In this document: piece after piece, positions 726 to 22,096 of the stretch | Numbering within the stretch: position 1 is the stretch's first letter | Layout: each line of letters starts with the position of its first letter | From: Rhodospirillaceae bacterium | Lineage (GTDB): Bacteria > Pseudomonadota > Alphaproteobacteria > Rhodospirillales > JABHCV01 | Direction: 5' to 3' | Length of the DNA stretch: 41,414 nt | NCBI GenBank assembly: GCA_014382375.1 | Contig: JACNJU010000076.1 | Location: 1 to 41,414, forward strand | Translations under genes and position numbers: made by a program | The notes under the pieces: model-generated | What the model was told of the DNA's origin: nothing | Database searches by the model: none | Seen by the model: the letters and a program-made list of their open reading frames with translations, nothing else

Positions 726-2489
726 CTAAACCAGCACCATGCCGTCTTCGGTAACAGGATCGTCGGTTTCGTCTTCGGGGCCGAAAATCATCTCGTTGTG
801 GGCCGCACCGGAGGGGATCATCGGGTAGCAGCTTTCCAGCTTGTCGACGCAGATGTCAGCGATCACCGGACGGTCGCATTCGATCATCTCGCCGATCACG
901 TCGTCCAGTTGTTCTTTTTTCTCGGCCCTAAGGCCAACGCCGCCGAAGGCTTCGGCCAGTTTAACGAAATCAGGCAAGGCCTGCATGTGGCTTTCGGCGT
1001 AGCGGCCACCGTGCAGCAGTTCCTGCCACTGGCGGACCATACCCATGTATTCGTTGTTCAGGATAAACACCTTCACCGGCAGGTTATACTGCACCAGGGT
1101 CGACATTTCCTGAATGTTCATCAGGATCGAGGCCTCCCCGGCAATATCGATGACCAGCGCCTTCGGGTGCGCCAATTGCACGCCCATGGCGGCGGGAAGG
1201 CCGTAGCCCATGGTGCCCAATCCGCCCGATGTCATCCAGCGGTTGGGGCGCTCAAAATGGAAATGCTGGGCCGCCCACATCTGGTGCTGGCCGACCTCGG
1301 TTGTGATGTAGACCTCGTTTTGTTTTTTTGTCAGCTCGTACAGGCGCTCGATCGCGTACTGCGGCTTGATGTTCTTGGCCGCCCGGTCGTAGTCGAGGCT
1401 TTTACGCTCCCGCCACTTGTTGATCGTCTTCCACCAGGACTTCATGGCTTTTTCATCGGCCCGCTTCTGTCCCGACTTCCAGAGCTTGATCATGTCCTCA
1501 AGCACATGGCCGACATCACCGACGATGCCCAGATCGACATGGACGTTCTTGTTGATCGAGGACGGGTCGATATCAATATGGATTTTCACGGAATCCGGCG
1601 AGAACGCATCGAGCCTGCCGGTCACCCGGTCATCAAAGCGCGCACCGACACAGACCATCACGTCGCAGTCATGCATGGCCATGTTGGCCTCGTAGGTTCC
1701 GTGCATACCCAGCATACCCAGGAAATGCTTGTCAGAGGCGGCAAGCGCGCCAAGCCCCATCAGCGTCAGGGTGCAGGGAAAATCCGTCGCCTGGACAAGC
1801 TGGGTCAAAAGCTGTGAGGCGCCGGGGCCGGAATTAATGACCCCGCCACCGGCATAGATCAGCGGCTTTTTGGCGCCAGCCATGATTTTAACGGCCTGTT
1901 CGATCTTCGCAAGATCACCCTTGATCTGCGGCTTGTAGCTTTTGTGAACGACCTTGGCCGGCGGCACATAATCGGCATGGCCCATCATCACGTCCTTGGG
2001 GAAATCGATGACCACCGGGCCGGGACGCCCGCTTTTGGCAACATAAAAGGCCTCGTGAATACGGCGCGCCAGATTATCGACATTCTTGACCAGATAGTTG
2101 TGCTTGGTACAGGGCCGGGTAATGCCGGTGGTGTCGGCTTCCTGAAAAGCGTCGTTACCGATCAGATGGGTTGGCACCTGGCCGCAGATGCAAACCAGCG
2201 GCACGCTGTCCATCATCGCATCGAGCAGGCCGGTCACCGCGTTGGTCGCACCGGGACCGGAGGTCACCAGCACGACGCCGACCTTGCCCGTCGACCTGGC
2301 ATAGCCTTCAGCCGCATGAACCGCGCCGCCTTCCTGTCGGACAAGAATGTGGCGGATTTTGTTCTGCTTGAAGAATTCGTCGTAAATCGGCAGCACAGCG
2401 CCGCCCGGATAGCCAAAGACAACGTCAACGCCCTGATCAGCCAATGCCTTCAGGAGTATTTGTGCGCCGCTCATCTGGTTTTTCGACAT
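726..2489 (-). CDS. ilvB: Acetolactate synthase large (catalytic) subunit
   Basis: A 587-aa ThDP-dependent enzyme that condenses two pyruvates, or pyruvate with 2-oxobutyrate, as the first common step of branched-chain amino acid synthesis. The N-terminal domain has GYPGGAVLPIYDEF and the ThDP-activating glutamate in RQEGGAVHAAEGYAR. The central domain carries the FAD-type region, and the C-terminal domain has GGLGTMGYGLPAAMG and the ThDP/Mg2+ region followed by NNEYMGMVRQWQ. The Mg2+ motif usually written GD(G/A)S reads GEAS here, with a GAG codon, so a ligand Asp is replaced by Glu. The start ATG at 2489 is preceded by GGTAAAGG. Length is normal for the family. It is the first gene of ilvB-ilvN-ilvC. 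Confidence 0.96.
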   Translation of the reverse strand: MSKNQMSGAQILLKALADQGVDVVFGYPGGAVLPIYDEFFKQNKIRHILVRQEGGAVHAAEGYARSTGKVGVVLVTSGPGATNAVTGLLDAMMDSVPLVCICGQVPTHLIGNDAFQEADTTGITRPCTKHNYLVKNVDNLARRIHEAFYVAKSGRPGPVVIDFPKDVMMGHADYVPPAKVVHKSYKPQIKGDLAKIEQAVKIMAGAKKPLIYAGGGVINSGPGASQLLTQLVQATDFPCTLTLMGLGALAASDKHFLGMLGMHGTYEANMAMHDCDVMVCVGARFDDRVTGRLDAFSPDSVKIHIDIDPSSINKNVHVDLGIVGDVGHVLEDMIKLWKSGQKRADEKAMKSWWKTINKWRERKSLDYDRAAKNIKPQYAIERLYELTKKQNEVYITTEVGQHQMWAAQHFHFERPNRWMTSGGLGTMGYGLPAAMGVQLAHPKALVIDIAGEASILMNIQEMSTLVQYNLPVKVFILNNEYMGMVRQWQELLHGGRYAESHMQALPDFVKLAEAFGGVGLRAEKKEQLDDVIGEMIECDRPVIADICVDKLESCYPMIPSGAAHNEMIFGPEDETDDPVTEDGMVLV

Positions 2490-2529
2490 CGTATTGGCCT
2501 TTACCTTAAAGTCACTTAAACAAAGTTTG

Positions 2530-2546
2530 GGCCGCCAAAGGCGGCC
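2530..2546 (-). terminator. GC-rich hairpin between miaA and ilvB (possible miaA terminator or ilvB leader hairpin)
   Basis: A perfect 7-bp inverted repeat GGCCGCC-AAA-GGCGGCC lies 41 bases upstream of the ilvB start and 75 bases after the miaA stop. On the minus strand it is followed only by CAAACTTTGTTT, so the uridine run is poor and intrinsic termination would be weak. I found no leader peptide rich in Val, Leu or Ile codons in the 130 bases upstream of ilvB, so classical attenuation is not supported. Confidence 0.4.
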
Positions 2547-2620
2547 TTTGATACGCTCTGTGCAAGAAATTGCGCCTGATTCCCAGCAATCCCGCTAAAC
2601 AGAACGCGCAAACTAGTCTT

Positions 2621-3583
2621 TCATGACGGCGGGGTCAACATAAATTGACGAATAAATGAAAAGATTTCAGGCCGTAAACTTTCCGAATATTGCTCAAAAA
2701 CAGGTAAATCGGCAGAAATCTGGTTGCGTAGCCAGGTCATCTGGCGTTTGGCGAACTGGCGGGTAGCCCGCTTGGCGTCATCGGTTGCGGTTTCCAGGTC
2801 CGTTTCACCGGCCAGATAGCGCCGCAGTTCCGGCACCCCGACCGCCTTCATCGCTGGCAGGGCCGGATCAAGTCCCAGGTCGTCAAGGGCGCGGACCTCC
2901 TGCAGCGCGCCATTGTCCATCATCCAGGCGAAACGCTGATTAACGCCTTCGTACAGGATTTCCCGGTCCGGGCTTAAGACAATAACGGCAAAAGCGGCGT
3001 CAAGCGGTGGCTGGGCGGGATGGTCCTTTTGCCAGTCGCTTAACGGCCTGCCTGTCGCCAGCGCCACTTCATAGGCGCGGATCAGGCGTTGGCTATCACC
3101 GGCGGGGATTCGAGCCGCCGCCTCCGGGTCAAGACTGGCCAGTGCGCCATGAAAAGCCTCAGGCCCAAGTTCCTTGTGAAGGTCCGTCGCCTCGGCCCGA
3201 TAAGACGCATCGACGCCCGGGATCGGGGCCAGCCCTTCCATCAGCGCCTTCAGGTAGAGGCCGGTGCCACCGACGACCAGCGGCACTTTTCCACCTGCCC
3301 AGGCGGCCCTGATTTCATCAACCGCCATATCCAGCCAGCGACCAACCGAACACGGATCAGCAGCCGCCAGCACCCCGTACAGGCGGTGTGGCGCCTTTTC
3401 CAGATCGCGCTCCGGCGGGCGGGCGCTCAGCACATCAAGCTCGCGGTAGACCTGCATGGAGTCCGCGTTGATGATGAGCCCGGAAAATTCCCGCGCCAGA
3501 TCGATGGCCAGGGCAGATTTTCCACTGGCCGTCGGCCCGGCGATAATGATGACCCGTTGTTGCAAGACGTGATCCTCTGGCAT
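2621..3583 (-). CDS. miaA: tRNA dimethylallyltransferase
   Basis: From the ATG at 3583 the protein is 320 aa and begins MPEDHVLQQRVIIIAGPTASGKSA, with the P-loop GPTASGKS at residues about 15-22. This is followed by DSMQVYRELDVLSARPP (substrate tRNA/Asp motif) and GGTGLYLKAL, all diagnostic of MiaA. The enzyme transfers dimethylallyl from DMAPP to N6 of A37 in tRNAs that read UNN codons. An in-frame ATG at 3631 would add 16 residues, but that stretch overlaps a 26-codon ORF in another frame that has a far better ribosome site. The downstream ATG also gives the normal family N-terminus and sits 8 bases after that ORF's stop, so I prefer it. It appears to be the last gene of tetR-acg-small ORF-miaA. 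Confidence 0.93.
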   Translation of the reverse strand: MPEDHVLQQRVIIIAGPTASGKSALAIDLAREFSGLIINADSMQVYRELDVLSARPPERDLEKAPHRLYGVLAAADPCSVGRWLDMAVDEIRAAWAGGKVPLVVGGTGLYLKALMEGLAPIPGVDASYRAEATDLHKELGPEAFHGALASLDPEAAARIPAGDSQRLIRAYEVALATGRPLSDWQKDHPAQPPLDAAFAVIVLSPDREILYEGVNQRFAWMMDNGALQEVRALDDLGLDPALPAMKAVGVPELRRYLAGETDLETATDDAKRATRQFAKRQMTWLRNQISADLPVFEQYSESLRPEIFSFIRQFMLTPPS

Positions 3584-3591
3584 TCGGGTAG

Positions 3592-3672
3592 CTATATCGC
3601 CACCAGCACCAGCAAAATCCACCATCCCCATTCCGGCAACTCTGCCTTATCGATAAATTCCCTGATCTTCAT
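3592..3672 (-). CDS. Small predicted membrane peptide, 26 aa, between acg and miaA
   Basis: A 26-codon ORF (ATG at 3672, TAG at 3594-3592) is preceded at 8-base spacing by AAAGGAGG, the strongest Shine-Dalgarno match in this area. That site overlaps the stop codon of the nitroreductase gene upstream, as expected for translational coupling. The peptide has a short charged N-terminus (MKIREFIDKAELPE) followed by a Trp-rich hydrophobic stretch WGWWILLVLVAI, which suggests a tiny membrane-associated protein. It ends 8 bases before the likely miaA start, so it may pass ribosomes to miaA, which has no clear site of its own. I do not recognise the peptide. The alternatives are that it is only a leader for miaA, or that it is chance and miaA starts at 3631. 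Confidence 0.55.
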   Translation of the reverse strand: MKIREFIDKAELPEWGWWILLVLVAI

Positions 3673-3686
3673 TTTTCAATCCTCCT

Positions 3687-4841
3687 TTAGTCTCGCATTA
3701 TATCGGATAAACCTCGACGCGCCGAATGGCTGACCGGGTCGGCGATCCCGAGGCGGAACAACATTTGTACCGTGTGACCGTCGGGAACACCCAAGAGCCC
3801 AAGAAACTGACGCTGCAAGGCGCTCATATCCGGGTATTCTTGCAGAACCTGGCTCATGGGATGCATGGCCAAACCCAGCTGCGTCGCCTTCAGGTTGAGC
3901 CGCTCGTAGGCGCGGCCTGTCAGCACCTGATCGAGACGGTTATTGGTTTTGGTCGTGATCCAGCCAAAAGCGGCTGCTGAATTGGCCTGCTCGGTCGTCA
4001 TCTGAACCGCCTGGGCACCGAATTCCGAACTGTCGGCCTCGGTTTCTTGCCGGTCCAGGAAGAACGTTTCGGCGGCGAATTTCATCAAACCCGTCATACC
4101 CGACTGGGCGACCCCAAACCCGTCGCGGAAGCGGGCGCGTTCTTCATCGTTAAAGCGGAACATGGCGATGGTTTCAGCGTCGCGGGCCTTGTCGGCGGTT
4201 TCGATCTGCATAGCCCGACGGGCGGTGTCGGCCAACGTGCGACGTTTGCCCGCCTTATTGGTCAGGCCAAGACCCGGATGATTGATGGAACCAGCCAGTT
4301 CGGAAAGCTGGGCCGCACTCACAGGGGTGTCCTCATAAACCCGTTTGTTCGATTGCCTTTTGGTGATCTGCGCGAACAAGGGATCAACACGGGCACTGCC
4401 GTCCTTTACCAGTGTGAGCGAGGCGACCGGCTTGTCGGCGATTTGCGCATTGGCGTACATGCCGTGCGGGAAATATTCGACATCCATGCGATAGCCCCGG
4501 CGCGCCGCCGCCAGTGCGGCGTTCTCAAGGAAGGTGCCCTGACCGATATGAACCTGACGAAACGGCGGGTCTGTTTCAGGCAGCAAACGCGACTGATCCA
4601 CATACAGATCAAAACTGTCAGGGCCTGTCAGATCGACGATCCACGGCTGCTTGTTGTGCGGGTTAGGGGCCAGGATGGCGTAGGACAAAACAATCCGGCG
4701 AATATCCGTTTCCCCGGGCATGGGGCCATTCCAGGCCTCAAGCCCGGTTTCACCGGTTTCGCCACAACCGCTGAGGATGCTGGGCAGCAACGCCACGCTC
4801 GAACCCGCCGCCATCACTTTGATGAAATCTCGTCTGTGCAT
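3687..4841 (-). CDS. Acg-type FMN-binding nitroreductase with Tat signal
   Basis: A 384-aa protein that begins MHRRDFIKVMAAGSSVALLPSILSGCG. The twin-arginine motif (RRDFIK) and hydrophobic stretch point to Tat export, and the Ser-Gly-Cys near residues 24-26 looks like a lipobox, so the product may be a periplasmic lipoprotein. The mature part opens with IRRIVLSYAILAPNPHNKQPW, the hallmark of the Acg-like nitroreductase family, and ends with a matching C-terminal region (GRAYERLNLKATQLGLAMHPMSQ). Such proteins bind FMN, but their physiological substrates are mostly unknown. It lies 4 bases downstream of a TetR gene on the same strand and is probably controlled by it. A quinone- or nitro-compound reductase role is inference only. 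Confidence 0.85.
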   Translation of the reverse strand: MHRRDFIKVMAAGSSVALLPSILSGCGETGETGLEAWNGPMPGETDIRRIVLSYAILAPNPHNKQPWIVDLTGPDSFDLYVDQSRLLPETDPPFRQVHIGQGTFLENAALAAARRGYRMDVEYFPHGMYANAQIADKPVASLTLVKDGSARVDPLFAQITKRQSNKRVYEDTPVSAAQLSELAGSINHPGLGLTNKAGKRRTLADTARRAMQIETADKARDAETIAMFRFNDEERARFRDGFGVAQSGMTGLMKFAAETFFLDRQETEADSSEFGAQAVQMTTEQANSAAAFGWITTKTNNRLDQVLTGRAYERLNLKATQLGLAMHPMSQVLQEYPDMSALQRQFLGLLGVPDGHTVQMLFRLGIADPVSHSARRGLSDIMRD

Positions 4842-4845
4842 GGTG

Positions 4846-5439
4846 TTATCCTTTAATCAGATAGGGGCGGATGATTTCGCGGATCAAATCAATACCCGCG
4901 CCGATGTTTTTGTCATTAAGCGGTTCCCCTTCGATGCTCAGGAAATCAAGCCAGTAATCACCGATCAACCAGCCGATACGAATTAACCGGGGCAAGGTTT
5001 TCTTGTCTTGCGGGCGGCGCATGACGCCACTTTCAATCAGGTATTCGAAGAAGGCCTCAATCTCTTTCAAGCGGGCCTTGCGAACCTTTTTGCAAGCCTT
5101 CGCCAGCTCAGGGTCATTGACAAGAAGGACCGATAATTCCTTCTGGAAAAACTGATACCTGACGAGCATCCCTTGCAGGGCAGCCAGGGCCGCGAGGAAC
5201 TTTTCCAAAGCCGGCAAACTATCATCGCCTGCCTGCCAGACCGTATCCATATCGGCAACCATTTGCTGATGGATGTGGCGGATGATCTCTTCCTTGTTGG
5301 CGAAGTGGTAGTAAAGATTGCCCGGACTGATCCCCATCGCTTCGGCGATATGGTTGGTCGACACCGCCGCCGTGCCCTGGTCGTTGAACAGGTCCGTCGC
5401 CGTCGTCAGAATGGCTTGCCTTGTCGAGACACGTTTCAT
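4846..5439 (-). CDS. TetR-family transcriptional regulator
   Basis: A 197-aa protein with the TetR N-terminal helix-turn-helix: RQAILTTATDLFNDQGTAAVST, then NHIAEAMGISPGNLYYHFANKEEII at residues about 28-52. The remaining 140 residues would form the ligand-binding and dimer domain, which has no recognisable ligand signature. It is the first gene of the minus-strand unit and lies 4 bases from the Acg-type nitroreductase, so it probably represses itself and that gene. A perfect palindrome sits 30 bases upstream of its start. Family assignment is firm and the effector is unknown. Confidence 0.93.
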   Translation of the reverse strand: MKRVSTRQAILTTATDLFNDQGTAAVSTNHIAEAMGISPGNLYYHFANKEEIIRHIHQQMVADMDTVWQAGDDSLPALEKFLAALAALQGMLVRYQFFQKELSVLLVNDPELAKACKKVRKARLKEIEAFFEYLIESGVMRRPQDKKTLPRLIRIGWLIGDYWLDFLSIEGEPLNDKNIGAGIDLIREIIRPYLIKG

Positions 5440-5469
5440 GGTTGGGGGTGTTCCCTTGATTTAAGTTAC

Positions 5470-5486
5470 TACTCTAATTTAGAGTA
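5470..5486. promoter_or_regulatory. Palindromic operator candidate for the TetR regulator
   Basis: The sequence TACTCTA-ATT-TAGAGTA is a perfect 7-bp inverted repeat with a 3-base centre, inside an AT-rich and roughly symmetric wider region (TTAAGT... to ...ACTTTAA, 5461-5495). It lies 30 bases upstream of the tetR start codon, where an autoregulatory operator is expected. Site geometry (17 bp) fits TetR-family operators. Binding has not been shown. Confidence 0.65.
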
Positions 5487-5531
5487 TTTACTTTAATTGT
5501 CAAGAAATTAATTGCCGCCCGCGCCGGCCAT

Positions 5532-5563
5532 AAAAAAAGCGGGCCCCGCAGGACCCGCTTTTT
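5532..5563 (-). terminator. Intrinsic terminator after trpB2
   Basis: On the minus strand the stem AAGCGGGTCC / GGGCCCGCTT (one mismatch, loop TGCG) is followed by a run of seven T residues and begins about 20 bases after the trpB2 stop codon. Flanking A and T runs make it usable from both strands, but nothing on the plus strand needs it. Confidence 0.85.
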
Positions 5564-5581
5564 GAAGTCTTGATGAAAGAT

Positions 5582-6946
5582 TTATTCGGCCGCCACCTGG
5601 GGCAGGTCCGCCATCGCCGCGTCGAGGGCGGCGTGGTCGTAGTCTTCGTCTTTCAGCTTGCCTGCGAAGTAGTCGGTGTAAGCCTGCATGTCGAAGTGAC
5701 CGTGACCGGACAGGTTGAACAGGATCGTCTTCGACGTCCCCTCCGCCTTGCACTTCAAGGCCTGATCGACGGCGGCCTTCACCGCGTGGGTCGATTCCGG
5801 CGCGGGTACGATGCCTTCGGCGCGGGCGAACTGGACCCCTGCGTCAAAACAGCCGGTCTGGTGATAAGCGACCGCTTCAACAAGCCCCAAGGCGACCAGA
5901 TGGCTGACCAGCGGCGACATCCCGTGGTAGCGCAAGCCACCGGCGTGAATGCCCGACGGAATAAAGGTCGAGCCCAGCGTGTGCATCTTGACCAGCGGCG
6001 TTAAGTGGGCGGTATCGCCGAAATCGTAGGCGAAGGTGCCACGGGTCAGGGTCGGACAGGCGGCAGGTTCGACGGCGATCACCTGGCGTTTCTTGCCGCC
6101 GCGCATTTGCTGACCCAGAAACGGGAAAGCAAGCCCGGCGAAGTTGGAGCCGCCACCGGCGCAACCGATGACGATATCCGGATCATCACCGGCCATTTCC
6201 ATCTGCTCCATGGCTTCCTGACCGATGATGGTCTGATGCAGAAGCACATGGTTAAGAACACTGCCCAGTGAATACTTGGTGTCGTCATTCTTGGCCGCCA
6301 CTTCGACGGCTTCGGAAATGGCGATGCCCAGTGAGCCTGTGGAATCCGGGTGTTCGGCAAGGATCGCCTTGCCGGATTCGGTTTCCATGCTGGGGCTGGC
6401 GACACAGCGCGCCCCGTAGGTTTCCATCAAGGCGCGGCGGTAAGGCTTCTGCTCAAAGCTGACCTTGACCATGAAGACGTTGACTTCAAGGCCGAACAGG
6501 TTGCCGGCGAAGGCCAGCGATGATCCCCACTGACCGGCGCCGGTTTCCGTCGACAGCTTCTTGACGCCTTCTTCCTTGTTGTAGAAGGCCTGGGCGACGG
6601 CGGTGTTGGGTTTGTGACTGCCCGACGGGCTGACGCCTTCGTACTTGTAGTAAATCCTGGCCGGGGTATCCAGAACCTGCTCAAGCCTGCGCGCCCGATA
6701 GAGCGGCGCCGGACGCCACAAACGGTAGACTTCGCGCACCGGTTCGGGGATTTCGATCTCCCGTTCCTGCGTCACTTCCTGCATGATGCAGGCCATGGGG
6801 AACAACGGCGCCAGGTCGTCAGGGCCGATCGGTTGGCCGGTGCCCGGATGCAGGACCGGGGCCAGTGGCTCGGGCAAATCAGCCGCGATGTTGTACCAAT
6901 GCTTTGGAATACGGTCTTCGGATAAGGTGTATTTGTAGTCGCCCAT
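5582..6946 (-). CDS. trpB: Tryptophan synthase beta-like enzyme, TrpB2 type
   Basis: A 454-aa PLP enzyme, longer than classical TrpB (about 400 aa) because of an N-terminal extension ([20 protein letters not shown]...) typical of the TrpB2 group. The PLP lysine lies in GSHKPNTA (residues about 110-117), the substrate region is ETGAGQWG, and the phosphate-binding loop is [10 protein letters not shown]. Classical TrpB joins indole and serine in a complex with TrpA. TrpB2 enzymes often act alone on indole, and some may use phosphoserine. No trpA or other trp gene is in the window, so this is a stand-alone copy. The start has a strong GGGGAGG site 5 bases before the ATG, a 14-bp palindrome lies upstream, and a terminator follows. 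Confidence 0.92.
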
Positions 6947-18021: not shown

Positions 18022-20406
18022 ATGGCGAACACAGCACCTGTTACTGAAAACTCACAAAGCCATACACCCGCGTATGGCACGGAACCGATCGGTCACATCG
18101 ATACGCTGGAGGGCAGCGTTAGCGTCTTCCGCGCCGATGGGCTGGCCGTTGAAGTGGAAGTCGGCCATCCGGTCTTCCAGGGAGACGAGATCATGACGGC
18201 CTCCGACAGCGCCGTTGGCCTTGTGCTGGTCGATCAGACGGCATTTTCCATGGCCGAAAACGGTCGCATCACCCTGGATGAAATGGTTTACGATCCGGCA
18301 TCCCAGGAAGGATCGATTGGCCTTTCTGTTGGCGCAGGTGTTTTTACCTTCATCAGCGGCGAGATCGCCAAAACAGACCCCGAGGCGATGGTTATCGATA
18401 CCCCGGTCGCCACCATCGGCATTCGCGGCACCCAGCTGGGCGTTGATATCGCCGACGGTGAAACCCTTACCGTGGTGATGATGGAAGAAGAAGGCGGATT
18501 TGTCGGCGAGGCCGTTATCCGCAATGGTCACGGCGTTCAGGTTCTCAACGCCGCCCATCAGGGAACAGTGGTCGCCGGGTTGAACGCCGCCCCTGGTGCC
18601 GTTTACATTCTTGAGTCTGGACAGATTGTCAATCAATTCGGGGCTACCCTGGGATACCTTCCCGACGTCGGCGACGCCAACGCCTACGGCGTCGAAGAAA
18701 GCGCGGTTGAAACCCTCGGCGAAGAAGAACTGGGCGAAGAGCCCTTCGCCGAAGACATTCAGGAAGAAGAAGCCATAACTGAGGTGATGCCAGCTACCGA
18801 AGAAAGTGAGAGGGACACCGATGAAACTCTTGCAGACTTCGAAACGACCGCTGGTGAACCCGAGGCGGAGACGCCCGAAGAAACCATCAAGGTGGTGGCA
18901 GAAGATTACGCCACGGGCAAGACCGGAACCGAGGTGAACCCCGCCGAAGGTGCTATCCCGCAAGCGGCAGTCGAAACGGTATCAACGACCACCGCCCGGG
19001 CAGCCCCGACAGTAACCCGCCGTGACGAGCCGGTTGTTGCAGAAACGGTGCCTGAACCGGAACCGGAGCCTGAACCAGAGGCAGAGCCTGAACCAATCAA
19101 CACGGAACCCGTCGCCTTTAACGAGGTCGGCACAACCGGCGAAGACAATATCCTGAGCGGGCAGTTAACGGCCACCGATGTCGATCAGGACGAACTGACG
19201 TTCACCCTTGATCCGGATGGCGCGCCTGAACATGGCTTTGTCGTTGTGGACGCCAGCGGCACGTACACTTATGTCCCGGATCAAAACTTTAGCGGTGCCG
19301 ACACCTTCACCTACATGGTTTCCGATGGTCACGGCGGTGTCGATAGCGCCACGGTGACGCTGAATGTGACGCCGATAGCAGACCAGCCGACGCTTGATGT
19401 TGCCGATGTCTCGTTCGGAACGGAGCTCCTGCCCGATGACGACAAGATCAAAGGCACCAAGGATGACGATGTTCTGTATGGCGGTGGCGGCAACGACACC
19501 ATCGATGGCAAGGGCGGTGACGACATCCTTTACGGTGATGGCGGCGCGACCGGTGAAACGACGGTTGCCCTTGATATTGCTGCAGCCCTGAGCGATACGG
19601 ACACCTCTGAATCCCTGTCGATCACGCTCAGCGGCCTGCCAGAGGGCGCGAGCCTGTCGGCTGGGATGGAAACCGACGGTGTCTGGACACTGCAAAGCGA
19701 AGATCTTGATGACCTGAGCATGACCTTGCCCGAAGGATATGCTGAGGGATTCCAGCTTGACGTCCAGGCAACGGCCACCGAGACCGCTGCCGGGGATACC
19801 GCCAGCACAGCAGCGACTATCAATGTCGCCTATACGGGGTCCGAAGCCGGTGACGACACCCTTAAAGGCGGCTCCGGCGACGACGTCCTGTATGGCGGCG
19901 ACGGCGATGATAGCCTGAAGGGCGGCGGCGGCGACGACGTTCTCTACGGCGGCGGCGGTGACGACACCCTTAAGGGCGGCGGCGGTGACGACGTCCTGTA
20001 TGGCGGCGACGGCGATGATAGCCTGAGGGGCGGCGGCGGCGGCGACGTTCTCTACGGCGGCGGCGGTGACGACACCCTTAAGGGCGAGGGCGGCGACGAC
20101 GTCCTGTATGGCGGCGGCGGCGATGATAACTTGAGGGGCGGCGGTGGAGAGGACACCTTTGTCTTCGGCACCGGTTCAGGATCCGATACCATCACCGATT
20201 ACAAAATCGGCGAGACCCTGCGCTTCGAAGGTGACAGCTTTAACGAACAGGCCCTGAGCGTCAATCAGGAGGGCAAACATGCGGTCATCACCTTCGGCGA
20301 GCAGAACGTCGAGGTCACCCTCAACAATATGGACCTGTCCGATATGAGCTACACCGTTACCCAGGAACCGGACGCTGTTGTCGTGGTCTTTGGCGAAGCC
20401 GATTAG
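18022..20406 (+). CDS. FecR-domain, cadherin-like and RTX calcium-binding protein (putative type I secreted adhesin)
   Basis: A 794-aa acidic protein without a signal peptide. Residues about 20-200 form a FecR-type domain (GSVSVFRADGLAVEVEVGHPVFQGDEI; DTPVATIGIRGTQLGV). Residues about 215-360 are an acidic, low-complexity linker with a Pro-Glu run (PEPEPEPEPEAEPEP). Residues about 362-455 are a cadherin-like/Ig-like domain (ENDxLSG...DQNFSGADTFTYMVSDGHGG). RTX nonapeptides (GGxGxDxLx) occur as a short block at about 474-512 and a long block at 610-714, with an Ig-like segment between. The C-terminal 80 residues (GSGSDTITDYKIGETLRF...) resemble the end of RTX proteins that holds the uncleaved type I secretion signal. 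No ABC exporter, adaptor or TolC gene is in the window. GGGGG lies 8 bases before the ATG. Confidence 0.85.
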   Translation: MANTAPVTENSQSHTPAYGTEPIGHIDTLEGSVSVFRADGLAVEVEVGHPVFQGDEIMTASDSAVGLVLVDQTAFSMAENGRITLDEMVYDPASQEGSIGLSVGAGVFTFISGEIAKTDPEAMVIDTPVATIGIRGTQLGVDIADGETLTVVMMEEEGGFVGEAVIRNGHGVQVLNAAHQGTVVAGLNAAPGAVYILESGQIVNQFGATLGYLPDVGDANAYGVEESAVETLGEEELGEEPFAEDIQEEEAITEVMPATEESERDTDETLADFETTAGEPEAETPEETIKVVAEDYATGKTGTEVNPAEGAIPQAAVETVSTTTARAAPTVTRRDEPVVAETVPEPEPEPEPEAEPEPINTEPVAFNEVGTTGEDNILSGQLTATDVDQDELTFTLDPDGAPEHGFVVVDASGTYTYVPDQNFSGADTFTYMVSDGHGGVDSATVTLNVTPIADQPTLDVADVSFGTELLPDDDKIKGTKDDDVLYGGGGNDTIDGKGGDDILYGDGGATGETTVALDIAAALSDTDTSESLSITLSGLPEGASLSAGMETDGVWTLQSEDLDDLSMTLPEGYAEGFQLDVQATATETAAGDTASTAATINVAYTGSEAGDDTLKGGSGDDVLYGGDGDDSLKGGGGDDVLYGGGGDDTLKGGGGDDVLYGGDGDDSLRGGGGGDVLYGGGGDDTLKGEGGDDVLYGGGGDDNLRGGGGEDTFVFGTGSGSDTITDYKIGETLRFEGDSFNEQALSVNQEGKHAVITFGEQNVEVTLNNMDLSDMSYTVTQEPDAVVVVFGEAD
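19849..20169 (+). repeat. Tandem 54-bp RTX repeats with a 108-bp higher-order pattern
   Basis: Six units of 54 bp (18 aa, two nonapeptides each) start at 19849, 19903, 19957, 20011, 20065 and 20119; the last decays into EDTFVFG. Units alternate between GDDTLK... and GDDSL(K/R)... types, and units 1 and 3 are more alike at DNA level than 1 and 2, so a 108-bp dimer was duplicated. Each nonapeptide should bind calcium in a parallel beta-roll. Confidence 0.9.
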
Positions 20407-21685: not shown

Positions 21686-21805
21686 AAGTTGTTCCCCTAC
21701 GCGATTCTGTTAGTCAAAATACCGCATCGACGGCCCTTCCAATAGCATTTCATCAATACAGCCGGTGATTCTCCTTTAATGACGTTTGATCTGGCCCTAT
21801 ATTGA

Positions 21806-22096
21806 TGGTGTCGGGTAACCGACTATAACGATAAACACTATGCGGAATAATCGTTGCGGACCCGGGGGCAGTGCCCGGCGCCTCCACCAAAATTCCCGAA
21901 CCCCTTTATCAGGGGTTTGCAATGGGGGCGAAACAGGATCGACGTACGTGGTAAAGGCATAACTTTCGTTCGGCATGGTATCCACCGTTATCGGGCCAAT
22001 CAGAGAAATGCCAACGATAATGAGGCATTTGCAGTAGCAGCCTAACGGCTCTTACTACGGGGTTCGGGGGGCACCTGGCAACAGAAGCCCCCCACT
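21806..22096 (+). ncRNA. ssrA: Circularly permuted two-piece tmRNA (transfer-messenger RNA)
   Basis: The order is acceptor piece, spacer, coding piece, as in alphaproteobacteria. The acceptor piece ends at 21889 with an encoded CCA (21887-21889). Its T stem is CCGGG (21862-21866) / CCCGG (21874-21878) with a 7-base loop, followed by the acceptor strand CGCCTCC (21879-21885). The coding piece begins GGGGGCG (21924-21930), which pairs with that strand over 7 bp including one G-U, then has AAACAGGATCGAC. The tag frame is at 22010-22045. A GC hairpin GGGGGGC / GCCCCCC lies at 22066-22093. The spacer 21890-21923 should be removed by processing. The outer ends (about 21806 and 22096) are estimates. 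tmRNA rescues stalled ribosomes and tags the unfinished protein for proteolysis. Confidence 0.93.
22010..22045 (+). other. tmRNA tag reading frame encoding ANDNEAFAVAA
   Basis: From the GCC at 22010 the codons read A-N-D-N-E-A-F-A-V-A-A and then TAA. With the alanine carried by tmRNA itself the full tag is 12 residues. The ANDN start and AVAA end match the tags of other alphaproteobacteria (Caulobacter: AANDNFAEEFAVAA), two residues shorter here. The C-terminal end is the ClpX recognition part, and the front part is what SspB recognises. Confidence 0.9.

Follow-up and report, generated by a model that had tools for sequence, protein, structure and literature searches.

A 26-codon open reading frame (ORF) situated between acg and miaA in a stretch of Rhodospirillaceae DNA of 41,414 nucleotides (the window) is probably a real small protein-coding gene that was missed by annotation. 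The best reading of our results, to which we assign a probability of about 0.62, is that this ORF is a genuine, lineage-restricted gene for a small membrane peptide, located upstream of miaA in a tetR-acg operon and likely serving Acg. An earlier note on this DNA had described a Shine-Dalgarno (SD) sequence overlapping the acg stop codon and followed after 8 bases by an ATG and a 26-codon ORF, and these features were recovered at exactly the same coordinates (Table 1).

Table 1. Positions of features discussed in the text
Feature	Position	Strand	Remarks
miaA, 314 aa, most likely from conserved TTG 3565	2621..3565	(-)	TIGR00174; start position by G001, G002, G003 and G007
miaA SD, AGAGGA	3573..3578	(-)	7 nt before TTG 3565; AGGA at same spacing in G001
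26-aa peptide ORF, MKIREFIDKAELPEWGWWILLVLVAI	3592..3672	(-)	ATG start, TAG stop
Peptide SD, AAAGGAGG	3681..3688	(-)	Overlaps acg stop TAA (3689-3687)
acg, Acg-family FMN-binding oxidoreductase	3687..4841	(-)	NF047509, E=1.9e-77, above cut-off
TetR-family regulator	4846..5439	(-)	PF00440, PF13972; first gene of probable operon
Sigma-70-like promoter match, TTGACA-16-TAAATT	5476..5503	(-)	Before tetR; consensus scan only
794-aa ORF	18022..20406	(+)	FecR-like, cadherin-like, RTX-type GGxGxD repeats
Two-piece (permuted) tmRNA gene, alphaproteobacterial	21771..22096	(+)	Rfam RF01849, 262 bits

Conservation of the peptide ORF

The spacer between AAAGGAGG and the peptide ATG is 8 nt long. The pattern AAAGGAGG-N4-10-ATG was detected 12 times in the 3.3-Mb genome versus 5 times for a reversed-pattern control. 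As ORFs of at least 134 codons begin at just 6 of the 12 sites, the SD is suggestive and by itself predicts a gene only moderately, and the case for the peptide rests on conservation.

One other species of the same genus (G001) had the same gene order of tetR-acg-peptide-miaA. The encoded peptide was identical at 25 of 26 residues (96%), the sole change being Asp8 to Glu, and the ATG, the TAG and the length of the ORF were the same in both species. Comparison of the 81-nt ORF detected no indels and four substitutions, all of which were at third codon positions and three of which were silent. Indels were present in both of the flanking spacers (that of 14 nt preceding the ORF and the one after it), and the SD was kept in G001, as AAAGGAG, although its spacer was altered. 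Under random substitution, the probability of all four changes falling at third positions was 0.012 and that of at least three being silent was 0.045, in a test that covers two genomes and four changes. The dN/dS value was about 0.07 for the peptide and 0.05 to 0.21 for real genes in the neighborhood (ilvB, 0.05; tetR, 0.08; miaA, 0.12; acg, 0.21). At the synonymous divergence of the neighboring genes, the probability of observing no more than four differences across 78 nt was about 1e-6 or less. Within acg, 25% of windows of 26 codons had a difference count similarly low to that of the peptide ORF, and one antisense frame over the ORF showed the same single change. The antisense ORF in question (3089-3733, plus strand) was interrupted in G001 and was rejected as a coding frame. 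Conservation due to an RNA element was unsupported, the predicted folds being no better than those of shuffled sequences (z, -0.61 and +0.40).

These comparisons supported the action of purifying selection on the peptide sequence, as judged against one independent genome. The earlier note had proposed real translation and had named absence of the peptide or SD from close relatives as the finding that would speak against it; both were retained in G001, and the selection, the retention of SD, start and stop, and the operon-like layout all point to translation. A chance or relic ORF, in which a non-coding spacer is conserved through the closeness of the species or a lost gene has left behind its decayed end, would be in keeping with a frame of 26 codons found in two genomes only and preceded by an SD of a strength that leads into a long ORF in about half of its genomic occurrences. 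However, the two species have diverged (synonymous difference, 0.27 to 0.50), and the presence of indels in both spacers but not in the ORF, the restriction of changes to third positions and the identical length and stop made this explanation distinctly improbable.

The start of miaA and the surrounding operon

The miaA gene most likely starts at TTG 3565, 26 nt beyond the peptide stop, with AGAGGA as its own SD. This start was assigned because the TTG and its SD were kept in G001, in which TTGCAACAACGGGT was retained with AGGA 7 bases ahead, and because the starts of other relatives align with it. A GTG in G002 (after AAGGAG) and an ATG in both G003 and G007 were exactly aligned with TTG 3565, and the start in G004 falls one codon later. 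The earlier note had placed the start at ATG 3583, 8 bases after the ORF, and had described miaA as lacking an SD of its own, and both statements must be corrected: the codon at the position of ATG 3583 is not a start in G001, and AGAGGA precedes the conserved TTG. A start at ATG 3631, which the note had raised as evidence that would count against the peptide, was excluded, as stop codons and an indel of a length not divisible by three break the miaA frame upstream of the TTG in G001 and the relatives start at the TTG position; ATG 3583 was rejected on the same grounds.

The tetR, acg, peptide and miaA genes share one orientation and are separated by 4, 14 and 26 nt, and a scan of positions 2400 to 5700 revealed no terminator-like site. 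A single co-transcribed operon comprising these four genes is probable from this arrangement. As read from the sequence, the N-terminus of the acg product is of Tat type (TAT_signal, E=0.07, below cut-off) and includes a SILSGC motif resembling a lipobox, and Acg has the appearance of a lipoprotein flavoenzyme exported by the Tat pathway. In G001, the interval between tetR and a TrpB-like gene was approximately 1.3 kb longer (L154 4846-6163, opposite window positions 5505-5583) and carried an ORF for a 391-aa MFS-like transporter, which is absent at that place in the window. Elsewhere in the window, the product of the 794-aa ORF, judged from its sequence, resembles a calcium-binding repeat protein of the secreted kind, and the two-piece tmRNA is of a type ordinary for this class.

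Composition, distribution and probable role of the peptide

Residues 15 to 26 of the peptide are hydrophobic, with a mean Kyte-Doolittle value of 2.3, and are preceded by a charged segment. Three Trp residues are present among the 26 residues (P of about 0.003 against local usage), encoded by UGG at codons 15, 17 and 18. The hydrophobic, Trp-rich C-terminal end reported previously was thus confirmed. The 12-residue run had a favorable sum of -1.7 on the biological scale but is short for spanning, as a full membrane span needs a hydrophobic segment of approximately 15 to 20 residues. Insertion into or association with the membrane is plausible, and with it the label of membrane peptide given in the earlier note.

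Searches of Pfam, NCBIfam, PHROGs and PDB sequences with the peptide produced no significant match, the best being Presenilin (Pfam; E=0.25); no structure match was found, and a literature search yielded nothing specific to the peptide. The length and hydrophobic tail resemble, in general terms, those of the short hydrophobic toxins of type I toxin-antitoxin pairs. Such a toxin is extremely unlikely here: the strong, accessible SD lies inside an operon with acg, the gene is single copy, Pfam, NCBIfam and PHROGs contained no match, and no typical antisense promoter was detected over the ORF end, the sole plus-strand consensus match (3519-3547) being inside miaA.

In a search of 317 genomes from the order, matches to the peptide at E<=0.01 were confined to the two species, and a sample of 385 genomes of the class gave only weak matches (E of 0.03 or worse) at unrelated positions; a 26-residue query detects only fairly close relatives, and distant homologs could be missed. 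The peptide was not found in the plasmids or phages searched or after acg at 23 acg-homolog loci elsewhere. It was present only where acg precedes miaA, and the remaining genomes of the same family with miaA (G002, G003 and G004) had neither acg nor the peptide. A contig search with MiaA as the query produced distant relatives only. In G002, G003, G004, G007 and G008, a divergent gene named from its sequence as a serB-like phosphatase precedes miaA. The best serB match in the window genome (G000) and in G001 is on another contig, and tetR-acg-peptide takes its place before miaA. The serB-like gene of G000 (G000:C204:6301-7098, away from miaA) is 45% identical to the miaA-adjacent copy of G003; the corresponding value for G002 and G004 is 55 to 59%. 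A displacement is possible.

We propose that the peptide gene would be the third cistron of the probable operon, its own strong SD serving for initiation when ribosomes complete acg. The charged N-terminal segment and the Trp-flanked hydrophobic tail suggest that the product most likely inserts in, or lies on, the cytoplasmic membrane and buries its C-terminus there. We favor a role as a membrane accessory to Acg because of the position of the gene and its phylogenetic association with the tetR-acg module, and the peptide would by position most likely serve the Acg side of the operon rather than MiaA. Tempering this reading are the acg homologs elsewhere that are not followed by the peptide, a hydrophobic run of only 12 residues, a comparison of two carrier genomes and four changes, and the lack of family, structure or literature matches. 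If the peptide does partner Acg, it would offer a way into the function of exported Acg-like flavoproteins; failing that, it would be an ordinary gene.

Relation to miaA and comparison with known systems

The ORF could act mainly in cis, with its translation bringing ribosomes over the junction between acg and miaA, opening structure at the miaA SD and coupling miaA to acg, and with the peptide being a by-product. The layout is compact, and in G000 pairing between the miaA SD and the final part of the peptide coding sequence was predicted at approximately 92% (mean unpaired value of the SD, 0.08). However, predicted pairing was much weaker in G001 (unpaired, 0.42), the folds did not exceed shuffles, and the distance from the peptide stop to the miaA start was 26 nt in G000 versus about 51 nt in G001. 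Furthermore, coupling alone would not need a conserved amino-acid sequence. The earlier note had taken the layout to suggest coupling; because miaA has its own SD, the layout does not require coupling, which becomes optional. A mainly cis-acting ORF is consequently judged unlikely.

A second miaA-centered possibility arises from the Trp codons. MiaA modifies tRNAs that read U-starting codons, including UGG, and slow reading of the UGG cluster could let MiaA sense its own activity and alter miaA expression. MiaA is known to be linked to UNN codons, the three UGG codons lie directly before miaA, and the helix predicted over the miaA SD in G000 involves codons around 17 to 21. Conversely, with 6 of 26 codons starting in U, enrichment was not significant (P=0.14), pairing of the miaA SD was weakly conserved, the relatives that were inspected have no such ORF ahead of miaA, and membrane interfaces, too, are typically rich in Trp. 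Trp codons apart, the features of attenuation were lacking, with no terminator-like site and folds no better than shuffles. We consider a leader of this kind very unlikely, and slightly less probable still is the specific mechanism in which MiaA activity feeds back on miaA translation via ribosome speed over the helix covering the miaA SD. If true, this would be a leader through which a tRNA-modification enzyme senses its own activity.

Regulatory leader peptides that respond to tRNA charging or modification resemble the ORF in being short, with a Trp cluster, ahead of a tRNA-modification gene; unlike them, it has no terminator or conserved alternative structure, and no counterpart was found upstream of miaA in those relatives that were inspected. 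Translationally coupled cistrons (review PMC12548453) share the SD overlapping an upstream stop and the short gaps, but here, in a case known from sequence, the downstream miaA has its own conserved SD.

The analysis corrects the miaA start in this genus and places one more probable small membrane peptide among the many that annotation has overlooked. Bacterial small membrane proteins of under 50 aa encoded in operons are a known general class. The peptide, known here from its sequence alone, has no detected sequence relationship to them and a hydrophobic run shorter than the usual span, but it is like them in its short length, its own strong SD, its hydrophobic stretch, its omission from annotation and its location adjoining genes that it may serve.
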